Source: Planctomycetota bacterium (GTDB lineage Bacteria; Planctomycetota; Phycisphaerae; FEN-1346). Taken from it: a stretch of 35,621 nucleotides of DNA. The stretch lies in the NCBI GenBank assembly GCA_016872895.1, contig VGYT01000009.1:1-35621 (forward strand), in the 5' to 3' direction. A model generated the notes under the pieces. That model was not told the DNA's origin. It saw only the letters and a list, made by a program, of their open reading frames with translations, and did no database searches. The translations under genes were made by a program, and so were the position numbers. This document shows, in pieces, positions 11,964 through 31,466 of the stretch (position 1 is its first letter; each line of letters starts with the position of its first letter).

Positions 11964-12419
11964 TTAAAGATGAATTATCTCAACGCGTTCCCACTTTTCC
12001 TTCAGGTACTCGGCCACCAGGCGCCGGTGGCACCTGGCGGCGGAGGGCTCGCTGCACAGAAGGCACGCGCCGTCCACGTCCTGCCGCGAAAGCGGCGCCT
12101 CAACCTGCCGCTCCTGAAGCAGGCGGCGGAACCGCTCCTCGTACTCGGCCCACCCAATCGTCTTCCTCCGGTAGCCGCGCAGCAGTTCCTCCGTGGGCGC
12201 AAGTTCCGGGCGGTGCACGTATGCGATGCCGCCGATCTCCCGGAGGAAGAAGGCCAGGTCGTCCTTCTTGGCGAAGCCCGCGAGTTGCGAAACATTGGCC
12301 AGGCGCACGTCGATGACCCGCCGCACGCCGGCCTCGCGCAGTTTTCCGAAGAAGTCGCGCGCGGTCTTCTTCGTGAAGCCGATGGTGAACAGGCGCACGG
12401 TGTCGGCGGAATCGCTCAT
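11964..12419 (-). CDS. DUF488 family protein (short paralogue)
   Basis: A 151-residue protein with the DUF488 layout. It has the opening strand LFTIGFTKKTARDFFGKL, the motif GVRRVIDVRLANVSQLAGFA, a central region KTIGWAEYEERFRRLL, and the late Cys pair LLCSEPSAARCHRR. The start MSDSADTV at 12419 overlaps the stop of the larger DUF488 gene as ATGA, giving translational coupling. The longer upstream frame is the shadow of that gene. DUF488 proteins have no firmly assigned reaction that I know. The conserved Cys-x(n)-Cys-His-Arg suggests a metal-binding or catalytic site. Confidence 0.85.
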   Translation of the reverse strand: MSDSADTVRLFTIGFTKKTARDFFGKLREAGVRRVIDVRLANVSQLAGFAKKDDLAFFLREIGGIAYVHRPELAPTEELLRGYRRKTIGWAEYEERFRRLLQERQVEAPLSRQDVDGACLLCSEPSAARCHRRLVAEYLKEKWERVEIIHL

Positions 12420-13090
12420 GGGTCGGGCGACAACTGGGCCTCGCGTTCGGGGCGGCAGGCGATGCGGTGCTCCTGTTTGCGGTAGGCCCGCTCGATGAGG
12501 CTCGTGCCGGAGTCGTCGGCGTCGAAAAGCGTCGGTTCGACCTTCAGCCGGCGTACGAGGCGCCTCTCGGCGGCCGCGTGGTCCTCCAGCGCGCCGTCGC
12601 CCAGGATGTGCACCACGCGCACACCCAGGCGATGAAGGCGCCGGGCGAGCAGGATGGCGCGGTGGCAGTCGAGGGGATCCTTCTCGGAGCACATGACGGC
12701 GGCGCGGCTCGCCGCGGCAATCTCGCGCAGCCTGTCCAGGCCGCGAAGGAACGCCCCGCTCCCGGCAATCCTGGCGAAGGAAATGCGCCCGTCTTCGTAG
12801 CACGCGGGATCGGCCGGGCGCGCGCCCAACTCCTTGCCCAGGAAGACGTAGCCGACGGCGGCCGCGCGAAGCATCGCGTCCAGCGTTTCCCGGTTGAACT
12901 GCGGGCAGTGCCGGCTGTAGGGCGACGAACGCACATCAACGACCGCCCGGACGCCGTGCCGCCGCAGAAGCGCAAGGAAGGCGTCCCCGGTATGCGAGGA
13001 GTGCCCGATCGTAAAGAGGAGTTCCTGCCCGGGCTGGTCCACGGGAGCGCGACCTCCGCCGGCATGCTCGGCAACCGCGATTGTAGCCAT
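12416..13090 (-). CDS. DUF488 family protein (long paralogue)
   Basis: A 224-residue protein. It carries LLFTIGHSSHTGDAFLALL, GVRAVVDVRSSPYSRHCPQF and the late MCSEKDPLDCHRAILLARRL, the same three landmarks as the shorter paralogue. The C-terminal extension (about 170-224) includes LFDADDSGTSLIERAYRKQE and is absent from the short copy. ATG 13090 is preferred to the TTG at 13108. The gap to the YjbQ stop is 21 bp. The two tandem, diverged DUF488 copies suggest distinct roles or a heteromer. The function is unknown. Confidence 0.88.
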   Translation of the reverse strand: MATIAVAEHAGGGRAPVDQPGQELLFTIGHSSHTGDAFLALLRRHGVRAVVDVRSSPYSRHCPQFNRETLDAMLRAAAVGYVFLGKELGARPADPACYEDGRISFARIAGSGAFLRGLDRLREIAAASRAAVMCSEKDPLDCHRAILLARRLHRLGVRVVHILGDGALEDHAAAERRLVRRLKVEPTLFDADDSGTSLIERAYRKQEHRIACRPEREAQLSPDP

Positions 13091-13111
13091 GCCGACCCGT
13101 CGCAACAAGCG

Positions 13112-15162: not shown

Positions 15163-16008
15163 GTGAAGCAGCCGCCGACCATCCTGTACTGCCACTGCGC
15201 GTACGCCGAGGTCATTCCGGACGAGACGCGGCGGGGCGTCCTTGAGGCGCTGGCCGCCCGCGGCGCGGCCTTCGAGGCCGTGGCGGACCTGTGCGAACTG
15301 GCGGCGCAGCGGGACCCGATGCTGGCGCGCCTGGCCGTCGCGGCGGACCTGCGCATCATCGCCTGCTGGCCGCGCACGGTGCGGTGGCTGTTTGCCTTCG
15401 CCGGTGCGCCGCTGGCGGCGGAGGGCGTCCGGTTCTTCAACATGCGGCGCGAGGGCGCCGAGGAAATCCTCGCCGCCGCATGCGGCACGGAGTCCGGGCG
15501 CGGGGCGGGTGCGCCGCGCGGCGGGTCGGGAGACCCGCCGCGCAAAGCGCTTCGGCGCGCGGGCGCGACGGCCGGGCAAGCCGGCCGTGCCGCATCGCGC
15601 CGAGCCGAGCCGCGCGCCGCGCCGGCGTTCCCGGGCAGGAAGGCGGGCGAGTGGGTCCCCTGGTTCCCCGTGCTGGACTACGAGCGGTGCCGGAACTGCC
15701 GGCAGTGCCTGGAGTTCTGCCTGTTCGGGGTGTACGCGGCGGACGAGGGGGGGCAGGTTCGCGTGGCGCATCCCGAGCGGTGCAAGACGGGGTGCCCGGC
15801 GTGCGCGCGGCTGTGCCCGGCGGTGGCGATTATTTTTCCGAAATATGCGGATGGCGCAATAAGCGGCGACGACGCGATGCCGGCGGCCGCCGGTCGGCCG
15901 GCGTCGCCGATCGACTTTTCGTCCCTGGCCGGGCTGGACCTGGGCGAGGCGCTGAGGCGGCGCCAGGCCATCCTGCGTGCCCGCCAGGAGGGCCGCCGTG
16001 AGCCGTGA
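15163..16008 (+). CDS. Ferredoxin-domain protein with N-terminal alpha/beta domain
   Basis: A 281-residue cytoplasmic protein. The N-terminal domain (about 5-108) begins [20 protein letters not shown] and contains [16 protein letters not shown] do not recognise its family with certainty. The C-terminal half binds two 4Fe-4S clusters: [11 protein letters not shown] (176-186) and [13 protein letters not shown] (207-219). Between them lies a linker that is largely repeat-derived. [10 protein letters not shown] (about 118-127) comes from palindrome A2, and TAGQAGRA (about 136-143) from a family B arm. It starts at GTG 15163, with no strong ribosome site. It overlaps the radical SAM gene by 11 bp, so it may be that enzyme's electron donor. 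Confidence 0.82.
15516..15543. repeat. Family A palindrome, copy A2 (inside ferredoxin gene)
   Basis: GCGCGGCGGGTC and GACCCGCCGCGC are perfect arms around GGGA. It is in frame and translated as [10 protein letters not shown], the same peptide as copy A4 in the cyclase gene. Confidence 0.9.
15568..15591. repeat. Family B arm, copy B3 (inside ferredoxin gene)
   Basis: ACGGCCGGGCAAGCCGGCCG continues to the GTGCC end and equals the right arm of the long family B palindrome. Only one arm is present. It is translated as TAGQAGRA, the same frame as copy B2. Confidence 0.75.
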
Positions 16009-17545
16009 AATGCGCCCGGCGGTCGTGCTGGTGGCCGACCGCACGCTGAGCGCCCGCTACGACGTGCTGTTTGAGGGCATCTTCGCCACGATGCAGACCA
16101 GGCACGTGCCGGAGGCGGTCATGCGGCGGTTCGTGGCGCCGCCCGTTCGGACGGACGCAGCCGGCCGCGCGCGCACCGCCCCGCTGGGCCTGAGGCGCGT
16201 GGAAGCGGCGCTGGCGGCGGGCGCCGGCCTCGGCCCCGATGATATCGTCTGCACCACGCCCGAGGCCCTGCCGCGGCTGCTGGGACCGCACGTGAAGGCC
16301 GTCGCCGTCAGTTCCAGCGACCCGCTCGGCTGCGGCATGAGCAATACGACGACCACGGATTTCTGGACGGGGCAACTGTACACGCGATTCTGGATGGACC
16401 GGCTGACGGAGCAACTGGCCGCCGCGCGGCGGCGGTTCGGTTTCCGAACAGTCGTAGGGGGGGCCGGCGCGTGGCAGTACCTGGAGCACCCGGAGGCGGG
16501 CGCGCGGCACGGGGCGGATACGGTCTTCGACGGGTACTTCGAGGGCGCCGGGCCGGGGTTGTTCCGGGACTTGCTGGCCGGGCGCGACGTGCCGCCGATC
16601 GTGCGCGCCGGCGAGACGGCGGCGGCGGGCGTGCGGCCCATCCGGGGGGCGTCGCTGCTGGGCATCGTGGAACTCTCGCGCGGGTGCGGCGGGGGCTGCC
16701 GCTTCTGCGCAATGGCCGCGCGGCCGATGGAGCACCTGACGGCGGGCACCATCCTGGCGGACATCGAGACGAACGTTGCGGCGGGCATGTCAAGCGCGGT
16801 CCTGGGCAGCGAGGACTTCTTCCGCTACGGGGCCGACGGACGCCGCGTGAACTTCGAGCGGCTGCGGGGCCTGCTGGAAGATATCCGCCGCCTGCCCGGC
16901 CTGGGCTTCGTGCAACTCGACCACGCAAACGTCTCGTCGGTGCTGCAACTGGAGGACGGCGAGTTGCGCGAAATCCGGCGGCTGCTCGGCTTCGCGCGGC
17001 CGACGGAGTACCTGTGGGTGAACCTGGGCATCGAGACGGCCGGCCCGCGGCTGCTTGCGGCCAACTGTCCGAGCAAGGCGGCCCCGTTCAGCGCGGACGA
17101 CTGGCCCGAGATGGTGCGCGAGGCGGCCGACCGCCTGGTCCGCACGGGCTTCTTCCCCGTCTTCAGCATCGTCCTGGGCCTGCCGGGCGAGACGCCCGAC
17201 GACGTGGCGACAACGCTGCACCTGGTGCGCCGCCTGTCGGCCGGGCGGGCGGTGGTGTTCCCTGTTTTCTTCGAGCCTGTGCGAGCAGGGCCGGACGGGC
17301 GCGACGCGCCCTTCCGCCTGGCTGCGATGACGCCCGAGCACCTGGAACTCTACACGGCGTGCTACGAACTGGCCTTCCGGTGGGTGCCGCGCCTTTACTG
17401 GGACAACCAGCGGGCAGGAGGTGTCGGGTTATTGAAGCGCCTGGCCGTGCAGTTGCTGGGTAGAATGGAAACGCTGACGTGGCGGCGGAACTTCGCCCGT
17501 GCGCGGAAGCGGCTGGCGGCCGTCGAGCCGAAGGCGCGCGGTTAG
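15998..17545 (+). CDS. Radical SAM protein
   Basis: A 515-residue enzyme. The radical SAM cluster motif is CGGGCRFC (Cys230, Cys234, Cys237) in [19 protein letters not shown]. The N-terminal third (about 1-220) is arranged like a B12-binding-type domain, with [19 protein letters not shown] and [13 protein letters not shown], but no DxHxxG is seen, so cobalamin binding is doubtful. The barrel continues with [28 protein letters not shown] and [23 protein letters not shown] at 15986-15991 lies six bases before GTG 15998, which decides the start over the ATG at 16010. It overlaps the ferredoxin gene and is followed by the DUF116-polyprenyl synthase. The substrate is unknown; a lipid or isoprenoid is a guess from neighbours. 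Confidence 0.88.
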
Positions 17546-17701: not shown

Positions 17702-17775
17702 CTGTGGGGCCAGGGGGCGCGCTGCGCGCGCCGGCCCGTGCGGCCGATGGCGTCCGGTCCGGGCAGGAACGGTGC

Positions 17776-19572
17776 ATGGAAGAACGCATCTTCGGAATCC
17801 GTGGCAGCCTGCATCCGGGCGCCGCCGGCGCTGAGGCCGTCGGCGAGGCCGCCCAGGACGCGATTCCGCCGACGAGGGCGGAGCGCGAAGGCATCCTTGC
17901 CGCCGCGCGCCGGCACGTCATGGGCCGCACGGCCATCCCGCCGTTCTCGGTGAAGGAACTGGAGGAGCACTCTGCGGCGGTCTTGGCGGCGGCGGGGGCC
18001 GACGAGAAGTACCGCAAGTTCGCGGCCGTCCTTGTGAGCAACGAGGCGTGGCGTCCGACGGTGGGGGCCGTGCCGTTCGCCCGGCGCCTGCTCCTGTTGC
18101 CGAAGTGCCTCCGTTCCGAGAAAGACTGCCGCGGCATGCTGGATGAACTGGGCCTGGTGTGCGCCGCGTGCGGGTCGTGCCCCATCCACGAGTTCAAGGC
18201 GGAGGCGGAGCGCCTCGGCTACGCGGTGCTGGTGGCCGAGGGCGCCGCCGTCGTCATGGCCCTCATCCAGAGCCGGCGCATCGAGGCGGTCGTAGGCGTC
18301 AGTTGCATCCAGGCCCTGGAGTCGATCTACCCGCTGATGGAGTCGGCGGCCGTGCCGGGCATCGCCATCCCCCTGTTGTGCAACGGCTGCGCGAACACGC
18401 GCGTGGAGGCCGAGTGGGTGTGGGACGCCATCCGGCTCTGCGGCACCGATGCGCCGCAGCGGCTGGACCTGGACTCGCTGCGGCGCCAGGTCGATGGCTG
18501 GTTCGCTGCGGACGCGCTGGAGGAGGTTCTCGGCCCGGCCGCAACCGAGACGGAGCGCCTGGCCCGCGGCTGGCTGGCGAAGTCGGGCAAGCGGTGGCGT
18601 CCGCTTCTTGCGGCGGCGGCGTACCAGGCGCTGCGCGAGGACCCGCAGTCGCCGCTGCCGGAGAGCCTGCGACGGATCGCGCTGGCGGTGGAGTGCTTCC
18701 ACAAGGCCTCGCTCGTGCACGACGACATCGAGGACGACGACGCCACCCGCTACGGCGAAAAAACGCTTCACGAGGAGCACGGCGTGCCGGTGGCGCTGAA
18801 CGTGGGCGATTTCCTCCTGGGCGAAGGGTACCGCCTGATTGCCGAGTCGCGATGGCCGGCGGAACGTAAGGTTCAGATGCTCCGCGCGGCGGCGAGCGGA
18901 CACCGCGAACTGTGCCTCGGCCAGGGGGCGGAACTGTGCTGGGCGAGGCGGCCGGCGGTTCTGTCGGCCGCAGAGGTCCTCGCAATCTTCCGCCGCAAGA
19001 CCGCCCCGGCGTTCGAGGTGGCCCTGCGCCTGGGAGCGCTGGCCGCCGGAACCGCCGACGGATGCTGGGACGCGCTCCACCGCTACAGCGAGGCCCTCGG
19101 CATAGCCTACCAGATAGGCGACGACCTGAAGGATTACGACGGCGACGGGGACCCGGACGACGTGGCGGCCCTGAGGCCCTCCATCCTGCTGGCCATCGCG
19201 CACGAGCGGGCCGAGGGCGGCGCGCGGCAGCGGCTGGAGTCCGTCTGGCGGCGGACGGCCGAGCGGGGGACCGAGGCGCCCGGCGTGCGGCGGCTGCTGG
19301 AGGAACTCGGCATCATCCAGGAGGCCCGCCGCCTGCTGGGGTCTTACGAGGATGAAGCCATCCGAAGCCTTGAGCCGCTGTGCGACGAGGCGCTCAAGGG
19401 CCTGCTGCGCCGCGTCATCTTCCGCATTTTCAGCCGCCTGCCTGCCGGCCCTGTCGCGGCGGGCGTGCCATGGCCTGCCGGCAGGGAGGGCCCCGGACAA
19501 GGGGACTTGCGCCGTGAGCCTGAGGCAGGACATGCTCCTGGCGGCCCGCCGCGGGGCGGCGGCGCTCGCTGA
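17776..19572 (+). CDS. DUF116 - polyprenyl diphosphate synthase fusion
   Basis: A 598-residue fusion. Residues about 100-225 match DUF116: LLLLPKCLRSEKDC, then GLVCAACGSCPIHEFKAEAE, LGYAVLVAEGAAVVM and VVGVSCIQALE, then CNGCANTRVEAEW. The nine Cys of this region could bind a metal or Fe-S cluster. Residues about 250-560 are an isoprenyl diphosphate synthase: GKRWRP (271-276), first Asp-rich motif VHDDIEDDD (about 315-322), LNVGDFLLGEGY, FRRKTAPAFEVA, and second Asp-rich motif YQIGDDLKDYDGD (about 445-457). It should condense isopentenyl units into a polyprenyl diphosphate; chain length is not readable. The start is ATG 17776 with AGGA upstream. Its 3' end overlaps the next gene by 59 bp. DUF116 has no established function that I know. 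Confidence 0.9.
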   Translation: MEERIFGIRGSLHPGAAGAEAVGEAAQDAIPPTRAEREGILAAARRHVMGRTAIPPFSVKELEEHSAAVLAAAGADEKYRKFAAVLVSNEAWRPTVGAVPFARRLLLLPKCLRSEKDCRGMLDELGLVCAACGSCPIHEFKAEAERLGYAVLVAEGAAVVMALIQSRRIEAVVGVSCIQALESIYPLMESAAVPGIAIPLLCNGCANTRVEAEWVWDAIRLCGTDAPQRLDLDSLRRQVDGWFAADALEEVLGPAATETERLARGWLAKSGKRWRPLLAAAAYQALREDPQSPLPESLRRIALAVECFHKASLVHDDIEDDDATRYGEKTLHEEHGVPVALNVGDFLLGEGYRLIAESRWPAERKVQMLRAAASGHRELCLGQGAELCWARRPAVLSAAEVLAIFRRKTAPAFEVALRLGALAAGTADGCWDALHRYSEALGIAYQIGDDLKDYDGDGDPDDVAALRPSILLAIAHERAEGGARQRLESVWRRTAERGTEAPGVRRLLEELGIIQEARRLLGSYEDEAIRSLEPLCDEALKGLLRRVIFRIFSRLPAGPVAAGVPWPAGREGPGQGDLRREPEAGHAPGGPPRGGGAR

Positions 19573-20482
19573 CCCGCGGGCGGTGGCGGCCTTCGTCGGT
19601 TCCCAGGCGGCGCCGGAGGGCGGCTTCCGCGACCGCTCCGGCAAGTGCGACCTTTACTACACCGTCTTCGGGCTTCAGTGCCTGGCCGCATTGCGGATTG
19701 CGGATTGCGGATTGCGGATTGAAAGAACAAGGCGCACAGAACCGGCGCGGCCTGTCAGCACCCGGTCCCCACCGCGCGATTCTCCATCTTCAATGCGCGA
19801 TGCCGAATCTTACCTGGGCAGATTCGCCGACCTCTGCTGCCTTGACCTGGTCCACGCGGCGTGCCTGGCGCGGTGCTGGGCCGTGGCCCGGCCGGAGGGC
19901 GCGCCGGCGGACCTCCGCCGGGCCTTCGCGCAGCACATCGAGTCTTTCCGGGCGGCCGACGGCGGGTATCACGCCGCCGCCGGGGCCGGGGCCGGCTCGG
20001 CCTACGGCGCGTTTCTCGCCCTCGGAGCGTACCAGGACCTGGGCGCGGCCGTGCCCGACCCGGCGGCGCTGGCCCGCTCGGTGCGCTCGCTCCGAACGCC
20101 CGACGGCGGATACACGAACGAGCGGTTCCTGCCGTTGAGTTCGGCGCCCGCGACGGCGGCGTGCATCGTGGTCCTTCGGGAACTCGGCGAGCCTGCGGCG
20201 CCGGAGGCCGCGGCCCGGCTCCTTGCGTGGGCGCATCCGTCGGGCGGTTTCCTGGCGATGGCCGCCGCGCCGGCGCCGGACCTTCTTTCGACCGCGACGG
20301 CGCTGCACGCCCTGGCCCGGGCGGGGGTGCGGCCGGATGAGCCGCTGCGGGCGGGGTGCGCGCGGTTCGCGGCCGGGCTGCTCGGCGAGTGCGGCGGGTT
20401 CCGCGGCCACGCCGACGACCCGGCCGCCGACTGCGAGTACACTTTCTACGGCCTCCTGGCGCTGGGGCACCTGGCGAGTTAG
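19514..20482 (+). CDS. Prenyltransferase/squalene oxidase repeat protein, probably non-catalytic
   Basis: A 322-residue alpha/alpha-toroid protein. Repeats such as FRAADGGYHAAAGAGAGSAYG, RTPDGGYTNERFLPL and CGGFRGHADDPAADCEYTFY match the prenyltransferase beta-subunit pattern. Compared with protein farnesyl- or geranylgeranyltransferases, the zinc Cys appears replaced (PDLLSTATAL) and the zinc His appears replaced by Tyr (CEYTFYG). There is also no DxDD. It may therefore be a structural partner of the next protein. About 40 residues (59 onward, LRIADCGLRIERTRR) come from a GCGGATT heptamer repeat and its flank. GTG 19514 is preferred; ATG 19532 is possible. It overlaps the synthase gene. Confidence 0.75.
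   Translation: MSLRQDMLLAARRGAAALADPRAVAAFVGSQAAPEGGFRDRSGKCDLYYTVFGLQCLAALRIADCGLRIERTRRTEPARPVSTRSPPRDSPSSMRDAESYLGRFADLCCLDLVHAACLARCWAVARPEGAPADLRRAFAQHIESFRAADGGYHAAAGAGAGSAYGAFLALGAYQDLGAAVPDPAALARSVRSLRTPDGGYTNERFLPLSSAPATAACIVVLRELGEPAAPEAAARLLAWAHPSGGFLAMAAAPAPDLLSTATALHALARAGVRPDEPLRAGCARFAAGLLGECGGFRGHADDPAADCEYTFYGLLALGHLAS
19690..19721. repeat. ATTGCGG heptamer repeat, copy D1 (inside prenyltransferase-like gene)
   Basis: Four tandem ATTGCGG heptamers plus ATTG, translated in frame as LRIADCGLRIE. The 80 bp that follow have no match to the protein family and probably belong to the same insertion. Confidence 0.85.
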
Positions 20483-20560: not shown

Positions 20561-20594
20561 ATGACCGGCTCCGGCGCCCTTGAAATCGCCGGTG

Positions 20595-20622
20595 GCGCGG
20601 CGGGTCAAGAGATCCGCCGCGC
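20595..20622. repeat. Family A palindrome, copy A3
   Basis: GCGCGGCGGGTC with GATCCGCCGCGC around AAGA; one G-T pair. It lies 24 bp before the chosen ATG of the cyclase gene. Confidence 0.85.
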
Positions 20623-20645
20623 GTCACGCAGATGGGCATATTCAG

Positions 20646-22718
20646 ATGCCAGCAACCGTGGCGAACCGCGATGCTCTCGCCCGCACGCTGCGGCAGGCGC
20701 GGGGGCGCCTGGCGGCCGCGCGCACCGCCGCCGGGCACTGGGCGGGGGAACTCTCGTCCTCGGCGCTCTCTACGGCCACCGCCACGTTCGCCCTGGCGAT
20801 GGCCGAGCGCGCGGGCGACCGCCACGGCGCCGCTCCCTCACGGTCGCGGCTCTGTTCGGCGGCCGCGCGCGGCAACCTGGCCCATCTCGTGCGCCGCGGC
20901 CTCGACTGGCTCGCCGCCAACCAGAACGAGGACGGCGGCTGGGGTGACACGGACCTCTCGCGGAGCAACCTGAGCACGACCGCGCTTGTGTGGGCGGCGT
21001 TTGCCGCATCGCCCGGCCCGTTCGACGGGGGAGCGGGAGGGCCTCGCGGCGGGTCGGGAGACCCGCCGCGCACGGCGAACGGCCCGTCAAGCGGCGCGGC
21101 GGGCGCGGCGGGCGCGGAGGCCCGCCTGCGGGCCGTCGCGGGGGCCGAGGCGTGGCTCCGCCGCCGGGCCGGCAGCCTTGAACCGGAGCGCCTGGCTGCC
21201 GCCATCGCGGCGCGCTACGGCCGCGACCGTACCTTTTCTGCGCCCATCCTGACGATGCTGGCCCTGGCCGGCCGCCTCGGACCGCCCGAGCGGTCGTGGC
21301 GTCTTGTGCCCGCCCTGCCGTTTGAACTTGCGGCCTGCCCGCACCGGCTTCTGGGGTGGCTGCGGCTGCCGGTCGTCAGTTACGCGCTGCCCGCGCTGGT
21401 GGCGGTCGGTCAGGTGCGGCACCACTTCCGGCCGACGCGCAACCCGGCGGCCCGCGCGCTGCGGGCCGCGCTCCGCGGGCGCACGCTCGCCGTCCTGCGA
21501 AGCATCCAGCCGCCGAGCGGCGGATACCTGGAGGCAACGCCCCTGACGAGTTTCGTCACGATGAGCCTCATCGGGGCCGGCCTCGCGGAACACCCGGTCG
21601 TTCAAGACGGCCTGGCGTTCCTGGCGGCCTCCGCCCGCCCCGACGGCAGTTGGCCCATCGACACGAACCTGGCCACGTGGGTGACCACGCTCTCCGTCGG
21701 CGCACTTGCGTCAGCGCCGGACTTCGCGCAGGTCGTGCCCGCCGACGCCCGCCGCACCATCCTGGAATGGCTCCTCGCGCAGCAGCACGCCGCGGAACAT
21801 CCGTACACGCACGCGGCGCCGGGCGGGTGGGCGTGGACCGACCTTCCGGGCGGCGTGCCAGACGCCGACGACACGGCCGGGGCGCTCGTGGCCCTGGCGC
21901 ACCTTGCGGCGGACCTCGGCGCGGAAGATGAGGCGGCCAGGCGCGCCGGCAACGCCGCCGCGCGCGGCGTGCGGTGGCTGCTGGACCTTCAGAACCGCGA
22001 CGGGGGCATCCCCACCTTCTGCCGCGGATGGGGCACGCTGCCCTTCGACCGCAGCAGTCCGGACCTGGCGGCCCACGCGCTGCGGGCGTGGGGGGCGTGG
22101 CACGACCGCCTGCCGGCGGACCTGCGGCCGCGAGTCCGGGCCGCCGCCGGCCGCGCAGCCGCGTACCTTGAACGCACGCAGACCGCCGACGGCGCGTGGG
22201 TCCCGCTGTGGTTCGGCAATCAGTGGGACGCCCGCGAGGAAAATCCGCTCTACGGAACGGCCCGCGTGGTGACGGCGCTGGCGCAGGCGGCTGCGGCCGA
22301 ACAGAGCCGCGACCGTAAGGGAGCGGTGCCGTGGCGGTTGCCTGCGCGCGGCCAGGCGGCCGCGCGGTGCCTCGCGCGCGGCGTCGGGTGGCTCCTGGCG
22401 GCACAGAACTGGGCCGGCGCGTGGGGCGGGTCGCCGGCAGCACGCGCCTCCATCGAAGAAACCGCCCTGGCGCTGGAGGCCTTGGCCGCAGCCCTCACAT
22501 CCGCGGCCGGCGCCGGCGCCGACTTGCCGCATGCCTCCATCCGGACCGCCCTTGCGCGCGGCACGGCATGGCTTATTGAGCGCACGGAGGAAGGCTCGCG
22601 ATTCCCTGCCGCCCCCATCGGCCTGTACTTTGCGAAACTGTGGTACTACGAGCGGCTGTACCCGCTCATTTTCACCGTGGCGGCGCTTGAGCGCGTGCGG
22701 CAGGCGGAGGGCCTGTGA
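20646..22718 (+). CDS. Squalene-hopene cyclase family protein (class II terpene cyclase)
   Basis: A 690-residue protein. The catalytic acid motif of class II cyclases, DADDTA, is intact at residues 406-411 (codons from 21861). QW-like repeats are visible: LAANQNEDGGWGDTD, SARPDGSWPIDTN, LQNRDGGIPTFCRGW, DGAWVPLWFGNQW and AAQNWAGAWGG. NPLYGTARVVTAL matches the SHC block near the C-terminus. It should protonate and cyclise a polyprenyl or triterpene-like substrate at the membrane. No squalene synthase gene is in the window, so the substrate may derive from the upstream polyprenyl synthase. Three repeat elements lie in frame (residues about 56-72, 134-142 and 551-567), all away from the catalytic motif. 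The start ATG 20646 is tentative; no good ribosome site is seen. Confidence 0.87.
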   Translation: MPATVANRDALARTLRQARGRLAAARTAAGHWAGELSSSALSTATATFALAMAERAGDRHGAAPSRSRLCSAAARGNLAHLVRRGLDWLAANQNEDGGWGDTDLSRSNLSTTALVWAAFAASPGPFDGGAGGPRGGSGDPPRTANGPSSGAAGAAGAEARLRAVAGAEAWLRRRAGSLEPERLAAAIAARYGRDRTFSAPILTMLALAGRLGPPERSWRLVPALPFELAACPHRLLGWLRLPVVSYALPALVAVGQVRHHFRPTRNPAARALRAALRGRTLAVLRSIQPPSGGYLEATPLTSFVTMSLIGAGLAEHPVVQDGLAFLAASARPDGSWPIDTNLATWVTTLSVGALASAPDFAQVVPADARRTILEWLLAQQHAAEHPYTHAAPGGWAWTDLPGGVPDADDTAGALVALAHLAADLGAEDEAARRAGNAAARGVRWLLDLQNRDGGIPTFCRGWGTLPFDRSSPDLAAHALRAWGAWHDRLPADLRPRVRAAAGRAAAYLERTQTADGAWVPLWFGNQWDAREENPLYGTARVVTALAQAAAAEQSRDRKGAVPWRLPARGQAAARCLARGVGWLLAAQNWAGAWGGSPAARASIEETALALEALAAALTSAAGAGADLPHASIRTALARGTAWLIERTEEGSRFPAAPIGLYFAKLWYYERLYPLIFTVAALERVRQAEGL
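20811..20860 (-). repeat. 50-bp family C element, copy C1 (inside cyclase gene, inverted)
   Basis: On the minus strand this reads GCCGAACAGAGCCGCGACCG and onward. It matches copy C2 (22296) at 46 of 50 positions by my alignment. It is translated in frame within AGDRHGAAPSRSRLCSAA. Confidence 0.88.
21046..21071. repeat. Family A palindrome, copy A4 (inside cyclase gene)
   Basis: CGCGGCGGGTC with GACCCGCCGCG around GGGA. It is translated as [10 protein letters not shown], identical to the peptide from copy A2 in an unrelated gene. Confidence 0.9.
22296..22345 (+). repeat. 50-bp family C element, copy C2 (inside cyclase gene)
   Basis: GCCGAACAGAGCCGCGACCG and the following 30 bp, in opposite orientation to C1. 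It is translated in frame as AEQSRDRKGAVPWRLPA. Confidence 0.88.
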
Positions 22719-22749: not shown

Positions 22750-24099
22750 ATGCGGCAGACGGGCTTGATGGCACGGCTGACATTCTGCGCGGCGGGTCTC
22801 CCGCTTTGCGCCGCGGGCCTCCCGACCCGCCGCGCACACGGCGCATCGGCGCAGCCCGGCGCGCGGCCAGTCGGGAGAGCCGCCGCGCCGCGCGCAGGCC
22901 CCGCGCTGCCGGCGGCAATTGCCTTGTGCGCAGCGGCGGCGCTGGCACTGGCCGGCTGCTGGGGCGGCCCGGCCGACGACGGGGAGGACGACGCGGCCGA
23001 CGGCGCCTCGTTTGAGGCCGCCCCGTGGCCGATGTTCCACGGCCGGCCGGACCTGGCGGGCGCGGCGCCGGGGCGGCTACCCAGGAAACTGACGCTGCGC
23101 TGGAGGTTCCAGGCCGACGGAGCAATCAAGTCGGCTGCCGCGATTGACCCTGCGCCCCTCGACGCTTCCGGCCGCGATGCCCGCGTCTTCGTCGGCTCCA
23201 GCGACTGCCACGTGTACGCGCTCGCCCTGGCCGACGGGCGGAAACTGTGGGCCTACAAGACCGCCGGCGGTGTCGAGGCAGCCCCGCTCGTCCTGGAGGG
23301 CGCCGTTTACGTGGGCTCCAACGACGGAGTCCTGTACGCCCTCGACGCCGCAACGGGGACCCTGCGATGGGAGTACGAGACGGGCGGCCAGATACCGGGC
23401 GGGGCCAACTGGGCACGGTCCCCCCAGGGCGACCGCACGTGGATTCTCGTGGGCAGTTACGACATGCTGCTGCACTGCCTGGATGCGGGGACCGGCCAGG
23501 TCGTCTGGACGCACGAGACGGGCAACTACATTAACGGCACGCCCGCCGTGGGCGGCGGCCGGATCGTCTTCGGCGGCTGCGACGCGCTGGTTCACATCCT
23601 GTCGGCGGCCGACGGGTCGCCCGTGGCGACGGTCGGGACCGACGCGTACGTGGCCGGGTCGGCCGCGCTGGCCGACGGCCGCATCTTCGTGGCCAACTAC
23701 CAGGGCAGGTTCTTCTGCATCGACCTGGAGACGCAGCGGATTCTGTGGCACTACGGCGACGACGAGTCGCCGTTTTACTCCTCGCCCGCCGTGGGGCCCC
23801 GGCAGGTGGTCATCGGCTGCGGCGACAACAAGGTCCACTGCATTGACCGCGGGAGCGGCCGGTCCTTGTGGACCTTTGCGACGCGCGGCAACGTGGATTC
23901 CAGCCCGGCCATCTGCGGCAACCGGGTCGTCGTCGGGTCGGGCGACGGGCGGCTGTACGTGCTGCGGCTGTCGGACGGGCGGCAGGCGTGGTCGTACGAG
24001 GTCGGCCAGCCCGTGACGGCCTCGCCCGCCGTCTCGGGCGGCTGGGTGGTCGTGGGCGGCGAGGACGGCGCCGTGTACGCCTTCGGGCCGGAACCGTGA
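22750..24099 (+). CDS. PQQ-like beta-propeller lipoprotein
   Basis: A 449-residue protein. A lipoprotein signal ends at LALAGC (Cys69 when counted from ATG 22750), after an unusually long N-terminal lead of about 50 residues. Part of that lead is encoded by palindrome A5. The true start may therefore be further in, although no better start codon with a ribosome site is seen. The propeller has seven or so blades with AVYVGSNDGVLYALDAATG, TWILVGSYDMLLHCLDAG, RVVVGSGDGRLYVLRLSDG and WVVVGGEDGAVYAFG; this is BamB-like in general form. It sits between the cyclase (31-bp gap) and a glycosyltransferase (1-bp gap). It may be a scaffold or lipid-handling factor in the envelope; catalysis is not indicated. 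Confidence 0.85.
   Translation: MRQTGLMARLTFCAAGLPLCAAGLPTRRAHGASAQPGARPVGRAAAPRAGPALPAAIALCAAAALALAGCWGGPADDGEDDAADGASFEAAPWPMFHGRPDLAGAAPGRLPRKLTLRWRFQADGAIKSAAAIDPAPLDASGRDARVFVGSSDCHVYALALADGRKLWAYKTAGGVEAAPLVLEGAVYVGSNDGVLYALDAATGTLRWEYETGGQIPGGANWARSPQGDRTWILVGSYDMLLHCLDAGTGQVVWTHETGNYINGTPAVGGGRIVFGGCDALVHILSAADGSPVATVGTDAYVAGSAALADGRIFVANYQGRFFCIDLETQRILWHYGDDESPFYSSPAVGPRQVVIGCGDNKVHCIDRGSGRSLWTFATRGNVDSSPAICGNRVVVGSGDGRLYVLRLSDGRQAWSYEVGQPVTASPAVSGGWVVVGGEDGAVYAFGPEP
22786..22836. repeat. Family A palindrome, copy A5 (in 5' end of PQQ lipoprotein gene)
   Basis: TGCGCGGCGGGTC (22786-22798) pairs perfectly with GACCCGCCGCGCA (22824-22836). The 25-base loop contains further GCGGG pieces, as if two elements had recombined. 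Confidence 0.85.
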
Positions 24100-24100
24100 T

Positions 24101-25405
24101 ATGAAGACAGTTCAGATAACCCCCGGGGCAGGCGGCGGCTTCCACTGCGACAACTGCCTCCGCGACAACGCTCTCGTGCTGGAACTCCGCCGCCGCGGCC
24201 ACGACGTGCTCATGGTGCCGCTGTACCTGCCGATGGCCGCCGACGGCCCCGACGCCAGCCGGGGCGCGCCCATCTTCTTCGGCGGCATCAACGTGTACCT
24301 TCAGCAGAAGTGGCCGCTGCTGCGGCGGACGCCCAGGTGGCTGGACCGGCTGCTGGACTCACCGCGCCTCCTGGCCTGCGTTGCCCGCCGCGCGGCGATG
24401 ACCCGCCCGCAGGACCTCGGCGAGCCGACGCTTTCGATGCTCCGCGGCGAAGAGGGGCGGCAGGTGAAGGAACTCGAACGGCTCGTCGCGTGGCTGGCCG
24501 AGCACGAGCGGCCGGACCTGGTGTGCCTCTCAAACGCGCTCCTCCTGGGCATGGCGCGGCGCCTGAAGCAGGCGCTCGGCGTGCCCGTGGTGTCGCTGCT
24601 TCAGGACGAAGATGCGTTCCTCGACTCGCTGCCGGAGCCGCACCGCGCCGAGGCGTGGGACACGGTCCGCCGCCGCGCCGCCGAACTCGACGGTTTCATC
24701 GCCACGAGCCGCTACTTCCGCGAGGTGATGGTCCGGCGGCTGGGCCTGCCGCCCGAGCGCGCCTGGGCCGTGCACGCGGGCCTCGACGCGGCGGGCTACG
24801 AGCCGGCCGCCGCGCCGCCGCAGCCCCCGGCCATCGGCTTTACCGCCCGCCTGTGCGAGGCCAAGGGGCTGGACACGCTGGTCGATGCGTTTCTCCTGGT
24901 CAGGAGCGAGGGCGCCGCGCCCGGCCTGCGGCTGCGCGCGGCCGGGATGCAGATGCCGGAGGACCGCGAGTTCGTCTCGCGGATGCGGCGGCGGCTGGCC
25001 GAGCGCGGCGCCGACGCCGACGCCGAGTTCCTCCCCGCGCCGGACCGCGCGGCCCGGCAGCGGTTCCTTCAGACGGTGTCGCTGGTGGCGGCGCCCGCGC
25101 GCCAGGCGGAGGCGTTCGGGCTTTTCGCCCTGGAGGCGATGGCCGCGGGCGTGCCCGTGGTCCTCTCGCGCGTGGGGTCGTACCCGGAACTGGTGGAGGC
25201 ATCCGGCGGCGGGGTGCTGGTGGAGCCCGACGACCCGGCGGCGCTGGCGGCGGCCATCGGCCGCCTGCTCGCCCGGCCCGACGAGGCCGGCGACCTGGCG
25301 GCGCGCGGACGCCGGGCGGTCCTCGACTACTTCAGCATCCACCGCATGGCCGACGAGACGCTGGCCGTCTTCGAGCACGTTGCCGGCGCCAAGCGCGCCG
25401 TATGA
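24101..25405 (+). CDS. GT4 family glycosyltransferase
   Basis: A 434-residue retaining glycosyltransferase of the GT-B fold. The N-terminal domain opens ITPGAGGGFHCDNCLRDNAL, with a Gly-rich sugar-acceptor loop, and ends near ATSRYFREVMVRRLGLP. The C-terminal domain starts with the typical IGFTARLCEAKGLDTLVDAF and carries the EX7E motif in EAFGLFALEAMAAGVPVV. The latter contacts the nucleotide-sugar. VGSYPELVEASGGGVLVEPDD is also standard. It starts one base after the lipoprotein stop and so is in the same operon. In context it may glycosylate a lipid product of the terpenoid enzymes, but donor and acceptor are unknown. Confidence 0.92.
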   Translation: MKTVQITPGAGGGFHCDNCLRDNALVLELRRRGHDVLMVPLYLPMAADGPDASRGAPIFFGGINVYLQQKWPLLRRTPRWLDRLLDSPRLLACVARRAAMTRPQDLGEPTLSMLRGEEGRQVKELERLVAWLAEHERPDLVCLSNALLLGMARRLKQALGVPVVSLLQDEDAFLDSLPEPHRAEAWDTVRRRAAELDGFIATSRYFREVMVRRLGLPPERAWAVHAGLDAAGYEPAAAPPQPPAIGFTARLCEAKGLDTLVDAFLLVRSEGAAPGLRLRAAGMQMPEDREFVSRMRRRLAERGADADAEFLPAPDRAARQRFLQTVSLVAAPARQAEAFGLFALEAMAAGVPVVLSRVGSYPELVEASGGGVLVEPDDPAALAAAIGRLLARPDEAGDLAARGRRAVLDYFSIHRMADETLAVFEHVAGAKRAV

Positions 25406-25406
25406 T

Positions 25407-25485
25407 CGGCGGGCTTGCCTGCCGCGGTACGTTCACGCGGCGGGCGTGCCGCGCTGTGTTCATGCGGCGGGCTTGCCTGCCGCGC
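25407..25485. repeat. Three spaced hairpins of CGGCGGGCTTGCCTGCCGCG type
   Basis: Copies at 25407-25426, 25437-25454 (shorter) and 25464-25485 are spaced about 28-30 bp. Copies 2 and 3 share a GTTCA(C/T)GCGGCGGGC lead. They fill the gap between the glycosyltransferase and the ABC ATPase and could be an operator array or a REP cluster. Confidence 0.8.
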
Positions 25486-25504
25486 TCTTCGCGGAGGCGT
25501 GCGT

Positions 25505-26293
25505 ATGCCCGATGCGCCGATTATTCAACTCGAAGCCGTGACAAAGCATTACGTGGGCCCCGACGGGCGGCCGACGCCGCCCGTTTTGGCGGGCGTGTCG
25601 CTGGCCATCGCCGCGGGCGAGTCGCTGGCCGTCGTCGGCCCGTCCGGCTCGGGCAAATCGACGCTTCTGAATATCATGGGCACGCTCGACCGCCCCACCA
25701 GCGGCCGCGTCCTCCTGGAAGGCCGCGACCTGGCCGCGATGGGCGACGAGGACCTTGCGGCCGTCCGGAACCGGCGCATCGGCTTCGTGTTCCAGTTGCA
25801 CCACCTGCTGCCGCAGTGCACGGCCCTGGAGAACGTGCTGGTGCCCACGCTGGCGCCCGGCGCCCGCGGAGCGGACGTGGCCCGGCCGGCTTGTCCGGCC
25901 GTGGGCAACTCAGCACGGGCAGAACCACGGCCGGACAAGCCGTCCGTGCCACATGGCGCAGAGAGGGAACCTGCTGAGGACCGCGCGCGGCGGCTGCTTG
26001 AGCGCGTGGGCCTGGGCCGGCGCCTCGACTACCGCCCCGGGCAACTCTCCGGGGGCGAGCGGCAGCGCGTGGCGGTGGCCCGGTCGCTCATCAACCGCCC
26101 CGCCCTGCTCCTGGCGGATGAGCCGACCGGGTCGCTCGACCGCGCCTCGGCCGACGGCCTGGCGGCGCTCCTGGTGGACCTCAACCGCCGCTACGGCATC
26201 ACGCTGGTGGCCGTCACGCACTCGGCCGCGCTGGCCGCGATGATGGGGCGGGTGCTTGAACTTCGCGACGGGCACTTGAGCCCCGCGTCGTGA
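25505..26293 (+). CDS. ABC transporter ATP-binding protein, LolD/MacB type
   Basis: A 262-residue ATPase. The Walker A is GPSGSGKST (45-53), the Q-loop FQLHHLLPQ (Gln97), the signature LSGGERQ (181-187), the Walker B LLLADEPTGSLD (201-212) and the switch His239. These match LolD/MacB-type export ATPases. ATG 25505 has GGAGG seven bases upstream. Residues about 125-150 ([11 protein letters not shown] onward) are encoded by a full family B palindrome. They lie in the helical subdomain between the Q-loop and signature, explaining why the protein is about 30 residues longer than usual. It pairs with the FtsX-type permease 9 bp downstream. It probably moves a lipid, lipoprotein or small molecule out of the inner membrane. 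Confidence 0.93.
   Translation: MPDAPIIQLEAVTKHYVGPDGRPTPPVLAGVSLAIAAGESLAVVGPSGSGKSTLLNIMGTLDRPTSGRVLLEGRDLAAMGDEDLAAVRNRRIGFVFQLHHLLPQCTALENVLVPTLAPGARGADVARPACPAVGNSARAEPRPDKPSVPHGAEREPAEDRARRLLERVGLGRRLDYRPGQLSGGERQRVAVARSLINRPALLLADEPTGSLDRASADGLAALLVDLNRRYGITLVAVTHSAALAAMMGRVLELRDGHLSPAS
25877..25952. repeat. Family B long palindrome, copy B1 (inside ABC ATPase gene)
   Basis: Arms of 28 bp (25877-25904 and 25925-25952), 26 of 28 complementary, with a 20-base loop. The core is GGCCGGCTTGTCCGGCC. The frame of the ATPase is kept. Confidence 0.9.
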
Positions 26294-26302
26294 ACATCGC
26301 CC

Positions 26303-29300
26303 ATGAACTCTCGGACACTGATAGCGCGCGGGCTGCGGTTCCACTGGCGCTCGCACCTGGGCGTGGCGCTGGGGGCCGCCGTGGCCACGGCCGTGCTCGT
26401 CGGCGCGCTGGCCGCGGGCGACTCGGTGCGCGCCAGTTTGCGGCGGATGGCCCTCGCGCGGCTGGGAAGGACGGAGGTCGCGCTGGCGGCCGGCGACCGC
26501 TTCTTCGGCGCCGGGCTGGCCGGCCGCCTCTGCGATGCGATCGGGCGGGACGCGGCGCCCGTGCTGCTCCTGGGCGGCACGGCGGCCCGACAGGACGGCG
26601 CCGCCCGCGCCAACTCCGTCCAGGTGGCGGGCGTGGGGCCGGAGTTCTGGAGGCTCGCCGCGGCGGCGTCGCCGCCCCCGCCCGATGCGCCCCGCAGCGC
26701 GGCCCTGAACGAGCGCCTCGCGCGGCACCTGGACCTGAAGGCCGGCGATGCCATCCTCGTGCGCGTGGGCAAGCCCAGCGCCATCCCGCTCGATGCGCCG
26801 CTTTCGGGCGAGGCGGAACCTCCGCCCGCGTTCCACCTGACCGTCGCGGCCATCGTCGGCGACGAACATTTCGGACGGTTCAGCCTCCAGGCAAACCAGG
26901 CCGCACCGTACAACGTCTTTGTGCCGCGCGAGTGGCTGGCTGAACAAGTGGAGCACCCGGACCGGGCGAACGTGCTGCTCGTGGGAAGCGAACTGCGCCG
27001 CGTGAACCAGTCTTCGCCCGACGAGACCTGGACGACGCCCGACCGGGCCGATGACGCGCTGGCCCGCGCCTGGACGCTCGGCGACGCCGAACTGGCCCTC
27101 GTGCCGCGCGGGGATCGCGGGGAGCCCGGCGGCGTGGAACTGCGTTCGCGCCGCGTGTTCCTGGACGCCGCCGTGGAAGCAGCCGCCGCGGCGGCCGACC
27201 CGCGGGCCGTGGGCATCCTGGCGTACTTCGCCATCGAACTGCGCGTGGGCGAGCGGGCGGCGCCGTATTCCCTCGTCGCAGCCCTCGGGCGGCTGAATCC
27301 GCAATACGCAATACGCAATCCGCAATCGCCTGACCCCCGGCCCTCGACGCTCGACGCACTTCTGCCGCCCGACCTGGCCGACGATGAGATCGTCATCAAC
27401 TCCTGGCTGGCCGAGGACCTGGCGGCCGGGCCCGGCGACCGGCTTGAGATGGCGTATTACGCCGTCGGCCCCGGGCGGCGGCTGGAGACCCGCTCCGCGC
27501 GATTGCGCATCCGCGCGGTCGTGCCGCTCGAGGGGGCGGCGGCCGACCCGACGCTCATGCCCGACTTCCCCGGCCTGGCGGACGTCGAGAACTGCCGCGA
27601 CTGGAAGCCGGGCGTGGCCATCGACCTGAAGAAGATTCGACCAAAAGATGAAGATTACTGGAATCGTTATCGGGGCACGCCGAAGGCGTTCGTCGCGCTG
27701 GCGGCCGGGCAGAAGATGTGGGCAACCCGCTTCGGCGGCCTCACGGCCGTGCGGTTCCCGCAGGCGAGCGACCCGCAGGCGGTTGAGGCGCGCCTGCGGG
27801 CGGGGCTCGACCCGAGGTCCCTGGGCCTGTACTTCCGGCCCGTGCGGGAGCAGGCCATCGCCGCAGTCCGCAGCGCCACGGACTTCGGCGGCCTGTTCCT
27901 GGGCCTCAGCATCTTCCTCGTGGCGGCCGCGCTCGTCCTGGCGGGCCTCCTGTTCGCCCTCCAGGTGGAGCAGCGGACGGAGGAGGCGGGGACGCTGCTG
28001 GCCCTCGGCCTGCCGCCGCGGCAGGTGCGCCGGCTGTTCCTGGCCGAGGGCGGGGCGCCGGCGCTGGCGGCCGGCGCGGCCGGCGGGGCGGCCGGGATTC
28101 TCTACACGCGGGCGATGCTGGGCCTGCTGGCGGGGGCGTGGGCGGCGGGCGGCGCGGCGGATCTCAGGTTCCACGCCGAACCTTTGACGCTCGTTCTCGG
28201 CATCGCCGGGGGGCTTGCGGCAGGGCTTGCGGCCATCGCCGCGACCGTCCGACGCCTGGCCCGCGCCCCGGCCCGTGAACTTCTGGCGGCGGGCGCCGAG
28301 GCCGAACTCCGCCCCGCAGCGCAGGGGCGGACACGGCTCGCACCCAGCGCCGCCCTGGCGGTCCTCGCGGCGGTCGGCGGCGGGGCCGTGCTGGAACTTG
28401 CGCCGGAGGGCGGCGGCGAAGCGGCCGCCGGCGCGTTCTTTGCCGCAGGGGCGCTATTCCTTGTCGGCTGCCTCGCCTTCTGCCGCATGCTGATGACGCC
28501 GCTTGCGCGGCCGGCGCCGGCGGGGCGATTCCACATGGGGCGACTGGTCCTGCGCAGCGTGGCGGCGCGGCGCGGGCGGAGCCTTGCGGTCGTGGCGCTC
28601 CTTGCGTGCGGCGTGTTCCTGGTGGCGGCCGTGGGCGTCTTCCGCCAGGGGGCCGAGCGCGACCCCGAGCGGCGCGCCAGCGGCACGGGCGGCTTCGCCC
28701 TGTACGCCGAGTCGTCCGTGCCGGTCGTCTACGATTTGAACTCGCCGGCCGGCCGCCGTGCGTTCGCCCTGCCGGACGACCTGGCGCGCGACATGAAGGT
28801 CGTGCCGCTGCGCCTGCGCGATGGGGACGACGCCTCGTGCCTGAATCTGAACCGGCCGCAGAATCCGCGCCTGGCCGCCGTCCGGCCCGAGGAACTGGCT
28901 GCGCGCGGGGCCTTTGCCTTTACCGAAGCGCTCGGCGCGGGCGCGGGCGAGAACCCGTGGCTGCTGCTCGCGCAGCGGCCGGACGACGGCGCCGTCCCGG
29001 CCATCGCCGACCAGGCGACTATTACGTGGGCGCTCGGCAAGAAGGCCGGCGACACGCTCGATTACACGGATGAGCGCGGGCAGCCGTTCAAGGTGCGCCT
29101 TGTCGGCGGGGTCGCCAACTCCATCCTCCAGGGGAGCATCGTGATTTCGGAGGATGCGTTTATCGAGAAGTTTCCATCCGCCGGCGGCTGGCGCGTGTTC
29201 CTGGTCGACGCCCCGCGCGGGCGCGCGGACGAGGCGGCGCAGGTTCTCTCGCGGCAGATGTCGGACGTGGGGCTGGCCGTGACGCCGGCGGCGGAGCGCC

Positions 29301-29707
29301 TGGCGGCCTTTACCGCCGTCGAGAATGCGTACGTCTCGATCTTCCAGGCCCTGGGCGGGCTGGGGCTGGTGCTGGGCAGCATCGGCCTGGGCGTCGTCGT
29401 GCTCCGCAACGTGATGGAGCGGCGGGAGGAACTCGCGGTCATGCGGGCGGTGGGCTTCCCGGTGCGGCTGCTGCGGCGGCTGATACTGTGGGAACACTGG
29501 CTCCTGCTCGGGCTGGGCCTGGCGGCGGGCCTGTGCGCGGCCGGGGGGGCCGTGGTGCCGGCCGTTCGGGCGGCGGGGGCAGAGGTGCCCTACCTCCTTC
29601 TGGGCGCGACGCTGGCGGCGGTGCTGGCGTCGGGGCTGGCGTGGACGTACCTTGCGGCCCGGCTTGCGCTTCGCGGGCCGCTTCTTGATGCGCTGCGGAA
29701 CGAGTAG
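26303..29707 (+). CDS. ABC transporter permease with two FtsX domains (MacB/LolCE-like, long form)
   Basis: A 1134-residue inner-membrane protein. The first helix (HLGVALGAAVATAVLVGALA) leads to a large extracytoplasmic region (about 45-525). A first FtsX block of helices follows (about 530-680: GGLFLGLSIFLVAAALVLAG, EEAGTLLALGLPPRQVRRLF). Then come a second periplasmic region and a second FtsX block at the C-terminus (EELAVMRAVGFPVRLLRRLI, about 1020-1130). This two-block layout is that of long FtsX permeases, not the four-helix MacB. A heptamer repeat is translated as LNPQYAIRNPQSPDPR (about residue 332-347) in the first periplasmic region. It is nine bp from the ATPase stop, with no clear ribosome site. 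It is the final gene of this run before a 326-bp gap. Confidence 0.88.
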   Translation: MNSRTLIARGLRFHWRSHLGVALGAAVATAVLVGALAAGDSVRASLRRMALARLGRTEVALAAGDRFFGAGLAGRLCDAIGRDAAPVLLLGGTAARQDGAARANSVQVAGVGPEFWRLAAAASPPPPDAPRSAALNERLARHLDLKAGDAILVRVGKPSAIPLDAPLSGEAEPPPAFHLTVAAIVGDEHFGRFSLQANQAAPYNVFVPREWLAEQVEHPDRANVLLVGSELRRVNQSSPDETWTTPDRADDALARAWTLGDAELALVPRGDRGEPGGVELRSRRVFLDAAVEAAAAAADPRAVGILAYFAIELRVGERAAPYSLVAALGRLNPQYAIRNPQSPDPRPSTLDALLPPDLADDEIVINSWLAEDLAAGPGDRLEMAYYAVGPGRRLETRSARLRIRAVVPLEGAAADPTLMPDFPGLADVENCRDWKPGVAIDLKKIRPKDEDYWNRYRGTPKAFVALAAGQKMWATRFGGLTAVRFPQASDPQAVEARLRAGLDPRSLGLYFRPVREQAIAAVRSATDFGGLFLGLSIFLVAAALVLAGLLFALQVEQRTEEAGTLLALGLPPRQVRRLFLAEGGAPALAAGAAGGAAGILYTRAMLGLLAGAWAAGGAADLRFHAEPLTLVLGIAGGLAAGLAAIAATVRRLARAPARELLAAGAEAELRPAAQGRTRLAPSAALAVLAAVGGGAVLELAPEGGGEAAAGAFFAAGALFLVGCLAFCRMLMTPLARPAPAGRFHMGRLVLRSVAARRGRSLAVVALLACGVFLVAAVGVFRQGAERDPERRASGTGGFALYAESSVPVVYDLNSPAGRRAFALPDDLARDMKVVPLRLRDGDDASCLNLNRPQNPRLAAVRPEELAARGAFAFTEALGAGAGENPWLLLAQRPDDGAVPAIADQATITWALGKKAGDTLDYTDERGQPFKVRLVGGVANSILQGSIVISEDAFIEKFPSAGGWRVFLVDAPRGRADEAAQVLSRQMSDVGLAVTPAAERLAAFTAVENAYVSIFQALGGLGLVLGSIGLGVVVLRNVMERREELAVMRAVGFPVRLLRRLILWEHWLLLGLGLAAGLCAAGGAVVPAVRAAGAEVPYLLLGATLAAVLASGLAWTYLAARLALRGPLLDALRNE
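27296..27326. repeat. CGCAATA/C heptamer repeat, copy D2 (inside permease gene)
   Basis: AATCCGCAATACGCAATACG and onward: four tandem heptamers, the reverse complement of the ATTGCGG unit at 19690. It is translated as NPQYAIRNPQ without breaking the frame. Confidence 0.85.
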
Positions 29708-31461: not shown

Positions 31462-31466
31462 CTTTC

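Follow-up and report, generated by a model that had tools for sequence, protein, structure and literature searches.

A conserved fusion of DUF116 with a polyprenyl diphosphate synthase, and its radical-SAM, ferredoxin and squalene-cyclase-like gene cluster, point to an undescribed terpenoid pathway

The gene at 17776..19572 (+) of the window, as we call the whole stretch of 35,621 nucleotides analysed here, encodes a 598-residue protein (gene D) in which a domain of unknown function, DUF116, is fused to a polyprenyl diphosphate synthase. The fusion itself is already known; what appears to be new is its setting in a conserved cluster of radical-SAM, ferredoxin and squalene-cyclase-like genes, and this conserved cluster points to an undescribed terpenoid pathway. 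Reasoning from sequence, we give a probability of about 0.5 to the reading that D is the committed prenyl-chain synthase of an Fe-S/radical-SAM terpenoid pathway and feeds a cyclase, with DUF116 acting as an Fe-S or redox module that couples the synthase to its Fe-S and radical-SAM partners. One sentence in Makarova et al. 2015 (PMC5898192) mentions a DUF116-polyprenyl synthetase fusion, Psta_0175 of Pirellula staleyi, and the same paper proposes that DUF116 (arCOG02078, COG1852) binds metal and takes part in electron transfer, and raises the idea of a flavodoxin-like fold. Beyond it, no paper with bacterial or archaeal DUF116 as its subject was found, other mentions appearing to be incidental, and neither an established function nor a solved structure was found for the domain in bacteria and archaea. 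Likewise, no description of the cluster was found in the literature searched, which left out most subscription papers.

The frame of gene D is open from an ATG at 17776 through 598 codons to a TGA stop. An in-frame GTG lies earlier, at 17704; since the alignment with relatives begins only at about residue 10-30, the ATG is considered an adequate start. DUF116 (PF01976) is matched over residues 71-219 (17986..18432, +) with an E-value of 8.6e-31 and 106.9 bits, against a curated cutoff of 25, and the trans-isoprenyl diphosphate synthase domain (polyprenyl_synt, PF00348) over residues 266-496 (18571..19263, +) with an E-value of 4.3e-43 and 147.8 bits, against a cutoff of 27. The first-pass annotation, made from the sequence alone, had described a single frame joining a Cys-rich DUF116 domain to a complete isoprenyl synthase, and this description is borne out: both domains score above their cutoffs in one open frame, seven Cys of the DUF116 half are invariant, and the 'about residues 100-225' given for DUF116 correspond to the Cys-containing core of the domain. 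The synthase half contains GKRxRP, DDIED, KT and DDLKD, and in the predicted model it matches solved GGPP, octaprenyl and heptaprenyl synthases with target TM-scores of 0.72-0.88.

The gene order in the window is A (PQQ propeller), B (4Fe-4S protein), C (radical SAM), D (the fusion), E (toroid), F (squalene/hopene-cyclase-like), G (PQQ), H (GT4), I and J (ABC ATPase and FtsX permease) and K (PQQ). Gene B (15163..16008, +; 281 residues) combines a Cys-containing N-terminal domain with a 4Fe-4S dicluster domain, as judged from Fer4 matches, alignments and its conservation beside the fusion, and in many relatives it is represented by two separate genes, b1 and b2. An HdrA-like domain in b1 had been suggested by eye from the Cys spacing and was rejected, as PDB profiles gave it no support. 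Gene C (15977..17545, +) encodes a radical SAM protein of about 521 residues with a CxxxCxxC motif (PF04055, E=3.6e-9) and weak similarity to TIGR04013. Downstream of the fusion, gene E (19514..20482, +), an alpha-alpha toroid protein of about 322 residues (PF00432) whose GTG start was taken from relatives, overlaps the end of gene D in a different frame, and is followed by gene F (20580..22718, +), a squalene/hopene-cyclase-like protein with a DxDD motif (PDADDTA; SQHop_cyclase_C, E=1e-25). Gene G (22750..24099, +), a PQQ/beta-propeller protein, and gene H (24101..25405, +), a GT4 glycosyltransferase, accompany the cluster as conserved neighbours in several relatives belonging to the window's class. 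Genes I and J (25415..29707, +), a LolD/MacB-type ABC ATPase and a large FtsX-type permease (MacB/LolCDE-like), are conserved near the cluster in several relatives and may form an exporter of its product.

The flanks of the cluster carry further genes. Downstream, 30034-35621 contains a PQQ propeller, an NHL-repeat protein, a 4Fe-4S protein and a Fer4_5-type membrane polyferredoxin, the first three of which recur downstream of the cluster at another locus, L031. Upstream, on the opposite strand, lie genes for a DUF488 protein (12416-13108, minus) and an FMN_bind/TPR protein (8032-9267, minus).

The block B-C-D-E-F-G-H recurs in close relatives, with I, J and K also present in several of them. 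At distant loci a frequent order is cysteine desulfurase, GcvH-like protein, CobW-type GTPase, b1, b2 (4Fe-4S), X, D, E and F, in which the GcvH-like protein keeps the lipoyl Lys and X, another radical SAM protein with a CxxxCxxC motif and a resemblance to SPASM-type families, takes the place of C in most other loci. Of 92 loci, 49 have a radical-SAM gene as the immediate upstream neighbour of D, belonging to one of two distinct families (X in 39 and C in 10), a few of the records being duplicates. When the 49 loci with more than 6.5 kb of upstream sequence were considered, E was found near the fusion in 31, b2 and X in 29 each, b1, the CobW-type GTPase and the GcvH-like protein in 25 each, and F in 17. 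Among 119 Planctomycetota genomes E is present in 24, of which 23 also carry the fusion (Fisher p=8e-17, uncorrected for kinship), and the fusion likewise accompanies the CobW gene in 20 of the 24 genomes carrying the latter (p=2e-11, again uncorrected for kinship). The window's own genome gave no match to the CobW gene of the cluster, so this part of the cluster is not universal, and F is absent beside the fusion in many Verrucomicrobiota loci, so that the cyclase may not be the only outlet of the fusion. At L037:4565-9899 and similar loci, the genes upstream of the fusion encode a cysteine desulfurase that narrowly exceeds the DndA cutoff, a GcvH-like protein, a CobW-type GTPase and a radical SAM protein. 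Such genes are found there in many members of both Planctomycetota and Verrucomicrobiota, and they hint that the pathway to which the fusion belongs involves Fe-S or sulfur chemistry.

On examining the two genes that follow the fusion, the DxDD motif of F was found to align with PDVDDTA of the solved bacterial squalene-hopene cyclase 1gsz, at the position of the acid motif, and to be invariant in ten homologues; F falls outside the squalene-hopene cyclase equivalog TIGR01507, scoring 70.1 against a cutoff of 431.1. The profile of E matches both Rab geranylgeranyltransferase beta and class II cyclases. A role for E as a protein prenyltransferase beta subunit was considered and rejected: at the Asp, Cys and His positions that we take to be the zinc ligands of such subunits, the alignment with RabGGTase beta shows the Asp kept, the Cys replaced by Leu and the His by Tyr. 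All 12 sampled genomes of the window's class that have the synthase (11 fused, 1 unfused) are without a squalene/phytoene synthase, and in this class F is present at every fusion locus that extends far enough; squalene is therefore not an obligatory substrate of F in these genomes, and the prenyl chain produced by D would be the obvious candidate. The idea that the fusion and squalene synthase exclude each other, striking in close relatives, did not survive a broader comparison, as 19 of the 31 fusion genomes among the 119 Planctomycetota have PF00494 (Fisher p=0.40), which is also present in 8 of 9 other fusion genomes. What survives is the weaker statement that a squalene synthase is not required alongside the fusion.

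Seven residues of the DUF116 half, at positions 111, 118, 129, 132, 135, 177 and 205 (18106..18390, +), are Cys in 89 of 89 aligned rows; three of them form the CxxCxxC motif (C129-C132-C135), and the remaining Cys of the fusion are variable or located in the synthase half. These row counts include a few duplicates, since L021/L032 and L024/L033 are apparently the same contigs as loci of the relatives, and L061 and L062 look alike. The invariance of the Cys cluster makes a metal or Fe-S site on these seven residues plausible, and this metal-binding reading draws on the Cys conservation and on the 2015 proposal (PMC5898192), not on structure. In the AlphaFold model, DUF116 is an alpha/beta domain preceded by a three-helix region (pLDDT 77). 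A Foldseek search of the modelled domain against the PDB gave no significant match (best E=0.017), which speaks neither for nor against the flavodoxin-like idea, and a sequence profile of DUF116 detected no solved relative and nothing meaningful in the PDB. Contig C124 of the same genome encodes a free-standing DUF116 paralogue (L114:3901-4392, minus), without a synthase domain, in which the same seven Cys positions are found at low identity. It sits between fmt and an rsmB/sun-type rRNA methyltransferase gene, with def adjoining (neighbours identified from their translations), which is a translation-linked setting of methionyl-tRNA formyltransferase, rRNA methyltransferase and peptide deformylase.

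In the pathway that we propose, the C-terminal half of D would elongate an allylic diphosphate with isopentenyl diphosphate (IPP) at the active site carrying the two Asp motifs, and the DUF116 half would hold an iron-sulfur (or other metal) centre on its seven fixed Cys. DUF116 would thereby serve as a redox or docking module tying chain synthesis to the 4Fe-4S protein B and to the radical-SAM protein C or X, and B together with C or X would modify the chain or its product. The toroid protein E would take the chain, and the DxDD cyclase F would cyclise it. What the sequences show directly is the fusion and its conservation, the motifs, the cluster and the co-occurrence; the product, the sequence of reactions, the path of the electrons and the metal centre itself are elements that we infer.

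The two-domain protein is encoded in 10 of 30 relatives (G001, G002, G004-G007, G014, G016, G024 and G025), at 39-67% identity. In an evenly drawn sample of 119 Planctomycetota genomes, 31 match the fusion profile at a threshold of E<=1e-45, nearly all of the matches spanning both domains and a few being partial or at contig ends. A search of a genome collection confirmed 499 stretches, and the best 80 of these are loci mostly labelled Verrucomicrobiota and Planctomycetota, including the cultured Chthoniobacter flavus Ellin428 (L100); a few of the 80 bear other phylum labels, taken from the titles of metagenome-assembled genomes (for example Terriglobia, Bacteroidales and Proteobacteria). An eleventh relative, G003 (L029:1509-2738), has the synthase half only, with neither DUF116 nor the cluster neighbours, and as an unrelated protein is encoded upstream of its synthase, this is a case of domain absence and not of a frame error. 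When 42 synthase domains were placed in a maximum-likelihood tree, the fused synthases grouped together and were separated, with support of 100/99, from nine other synthases encoded in related genomes. The unfused synthase of G003 is nested within the fused group; the long branches of L028, L030 and L113 leave the inner details of the tree unsure. The simplest reading would be one old fusion followed by one later loss of DUF116, in G003. A fixed link of DUF116 to chain elongation, which the first-pass annotation had put forward as a strong clue to function, thus proves to be real and old, with one fused clade across Planctomycetota and Verrucomicrobiota.

The same relative, which keeps its synthase half without DUF116, indicates that a stable synthase does not strictly require DUF116, and the free-standing paralogue with the same seven Cys indicates that the domain can work without a synthase. 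Both observations would suit a fusion of convenience, in which DUF116 has a job of its own, such as supplying clusters or passing electrons to the radical-SAM enzyme, and is joined to the synthase solely for co-expression or fixed stoichiometry with no effect on elongation. We consider this explanation unlikely, though worth keeping in mind, given that the fusion has been retained in two phyla and that only one domain loss is seen in the tree.

It was also suggested in the initial reading of the sequence that the Cys cluster might sense redox state or metal and so switch the synthase on or off, an idea in keeping with a Cys-rich domain being permanently joined to a complete synthase. However, many lineages and cluster types retain all seven Cys together with the entire domain, which is what one would expect of a structural or catalytic cluster, and the neighbouring genes encode enzymes of redox chemistry, not regulators. 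Structure prediction had been proposed as a way of seeing if the Cys cluster points towards the active site; the predicted model of the fusion has a pTM of 0.58 and a pLDDT of 53-65 around residues 111-140, so that the domain orientation is unreliable, too uncertain to answer either way or to show contact. Such a switch is thus distinctly unlikely, and control of the synthase, possible in itself, is not supported over the alternatives, as the ferredoxin-like, radical SAM and cyclase context fits an Fe-S or redox module of the pathway at least as well. It is also conceivable, if quite improbable, that DUF116 is itself a reductive partner enzyme acting on the prenyl diphosphate of its own synthase, together with the radical-SAM and 4Fe-4S neighbours, to yield a polyprenyl substrate for F; this would amount to an Fe-S route, independent of squalene synthase, by which Planctomycetota and Verrucomicrobiota make cyclic polyterpenoids.

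The role of D as a chain-elongating synthase, on which our preferred reading of a committed step in the pathway depends, can be weighed against the details of the synthase half. Its first Asp-rich motif, DDIED (residues 316-320; 18721..18735, +), is preceded by HKASLVH, and its second is DDLKD (residues 449-453; 19120..19134, +); both DDxxD motifs are invariant in 89 of 89 rows, GKRxRP is nearly so and KT essentially so. All 89 rows have Ala at position -5 and Ser at position -4 relative to the first motif (HKASLVHDD), and the FPP-type synthase of the same genome has Tyr-Ser there (HTYSLIHDD). In these synthases a small residue just ahead of the first Asp motif goes with medium or long chains, and the Ala/Ser pair suggests a medium or long chain product for D. 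This FPP-type enzyme, encoded beside dxs, is one of two further synthases of the genome, the other being of long-chain type, so the fused synthase is a third enzyme of this kind, additional and specialised. None of the NCBIfam chain-length equivalogs for FPP, GGPP, heptaprenyl and octaprenyl synthases was matched over its cutoff (for example, 126.5 against 450 and 104.8 against 275). The RRG that usually follows the first motif, a diphosphate-binding feature common in the PF00348 family though not defining for it, is lacking in D: RYG is found in nearly all of the 89 rows and Tyr, which is Tyr326 in D, replaces the second Arg in every one, whereas the aligned solved archaeal GGPP synthases have RRG at the homologous place. 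In FPP synthase the second Arg of RRG contacts the IPP diphosphate, and ordinary IPP condensation by D is therefore not certain. This replacement and the equivalog scores could be taken to mean that the synthase half transfers prenyl groups to some other acceptor instead of adding IPP, but the rest of the IPP site (GKR and the His preceding the motif) is intact, as is the allylic site, which renders this proposal very doubtful. As for a frameshift or misassembly, which the first-pass annotation had listed beside absence of the architecture from relatives as a result that would overturn its claim, the two domains share one frame in the relatives and phylum genomes counted above, fusions turned up in the genome collection as well, and with many independent genomes involved, cultured C. 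flavus included, and nothing found in favour of an artefact, this explanation can be dismissed.

Because DUF116 is firmly joined to an enzyme whose chemistry is known, within a conserved cyclase cluster, its function becomes testable, as product and metal centre can be sought in one protein; the RYG and seven-Cys features and the terpenoid-type cluster contribute likewise. From the cluster, an isoprenoid product can be predicted for two phyla that are abundant in the environment, and in some lineages this product could not arise from squalene supplied by the usual synthase. Were it a membrane lipid, it could have a bearing on lipid biomarkers.

Comparison with known systems places the fusion and its cluster in perspective. 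Psta_0175 has the same domain pair as D, and the paper that mentions it (PMC5898192) names only energy-conversion neighbours, with no mention of the cyclase, radical-SAM and ferredoxin cluster. The archaeal GGPP synthases 5jfq and 1wy0 and the octaprenyl synthase 3wjk have in common with D the fold, both DDxxD motifs, GKRxRP and KT; D differs from them in its N-terminal DUF116, in having RYG for RRG and in scoring below every curated equivalog cutoff. In Bacillus, a C35 cyclic terpenoid pathway consists of heptaprenyl synthase, tetraprenyl-curcumene synthase and SqhC. Both this route and the squalene-hopene cyclase (hpn) pathway have a prenyl synthase that feeds a DxDD class II cyclase, as is proposed for the cluster described here. 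Unlike either of them, however, the present cluster needs no squalene/phytoene synthase and includes radical-SAM and Fe-S genes.
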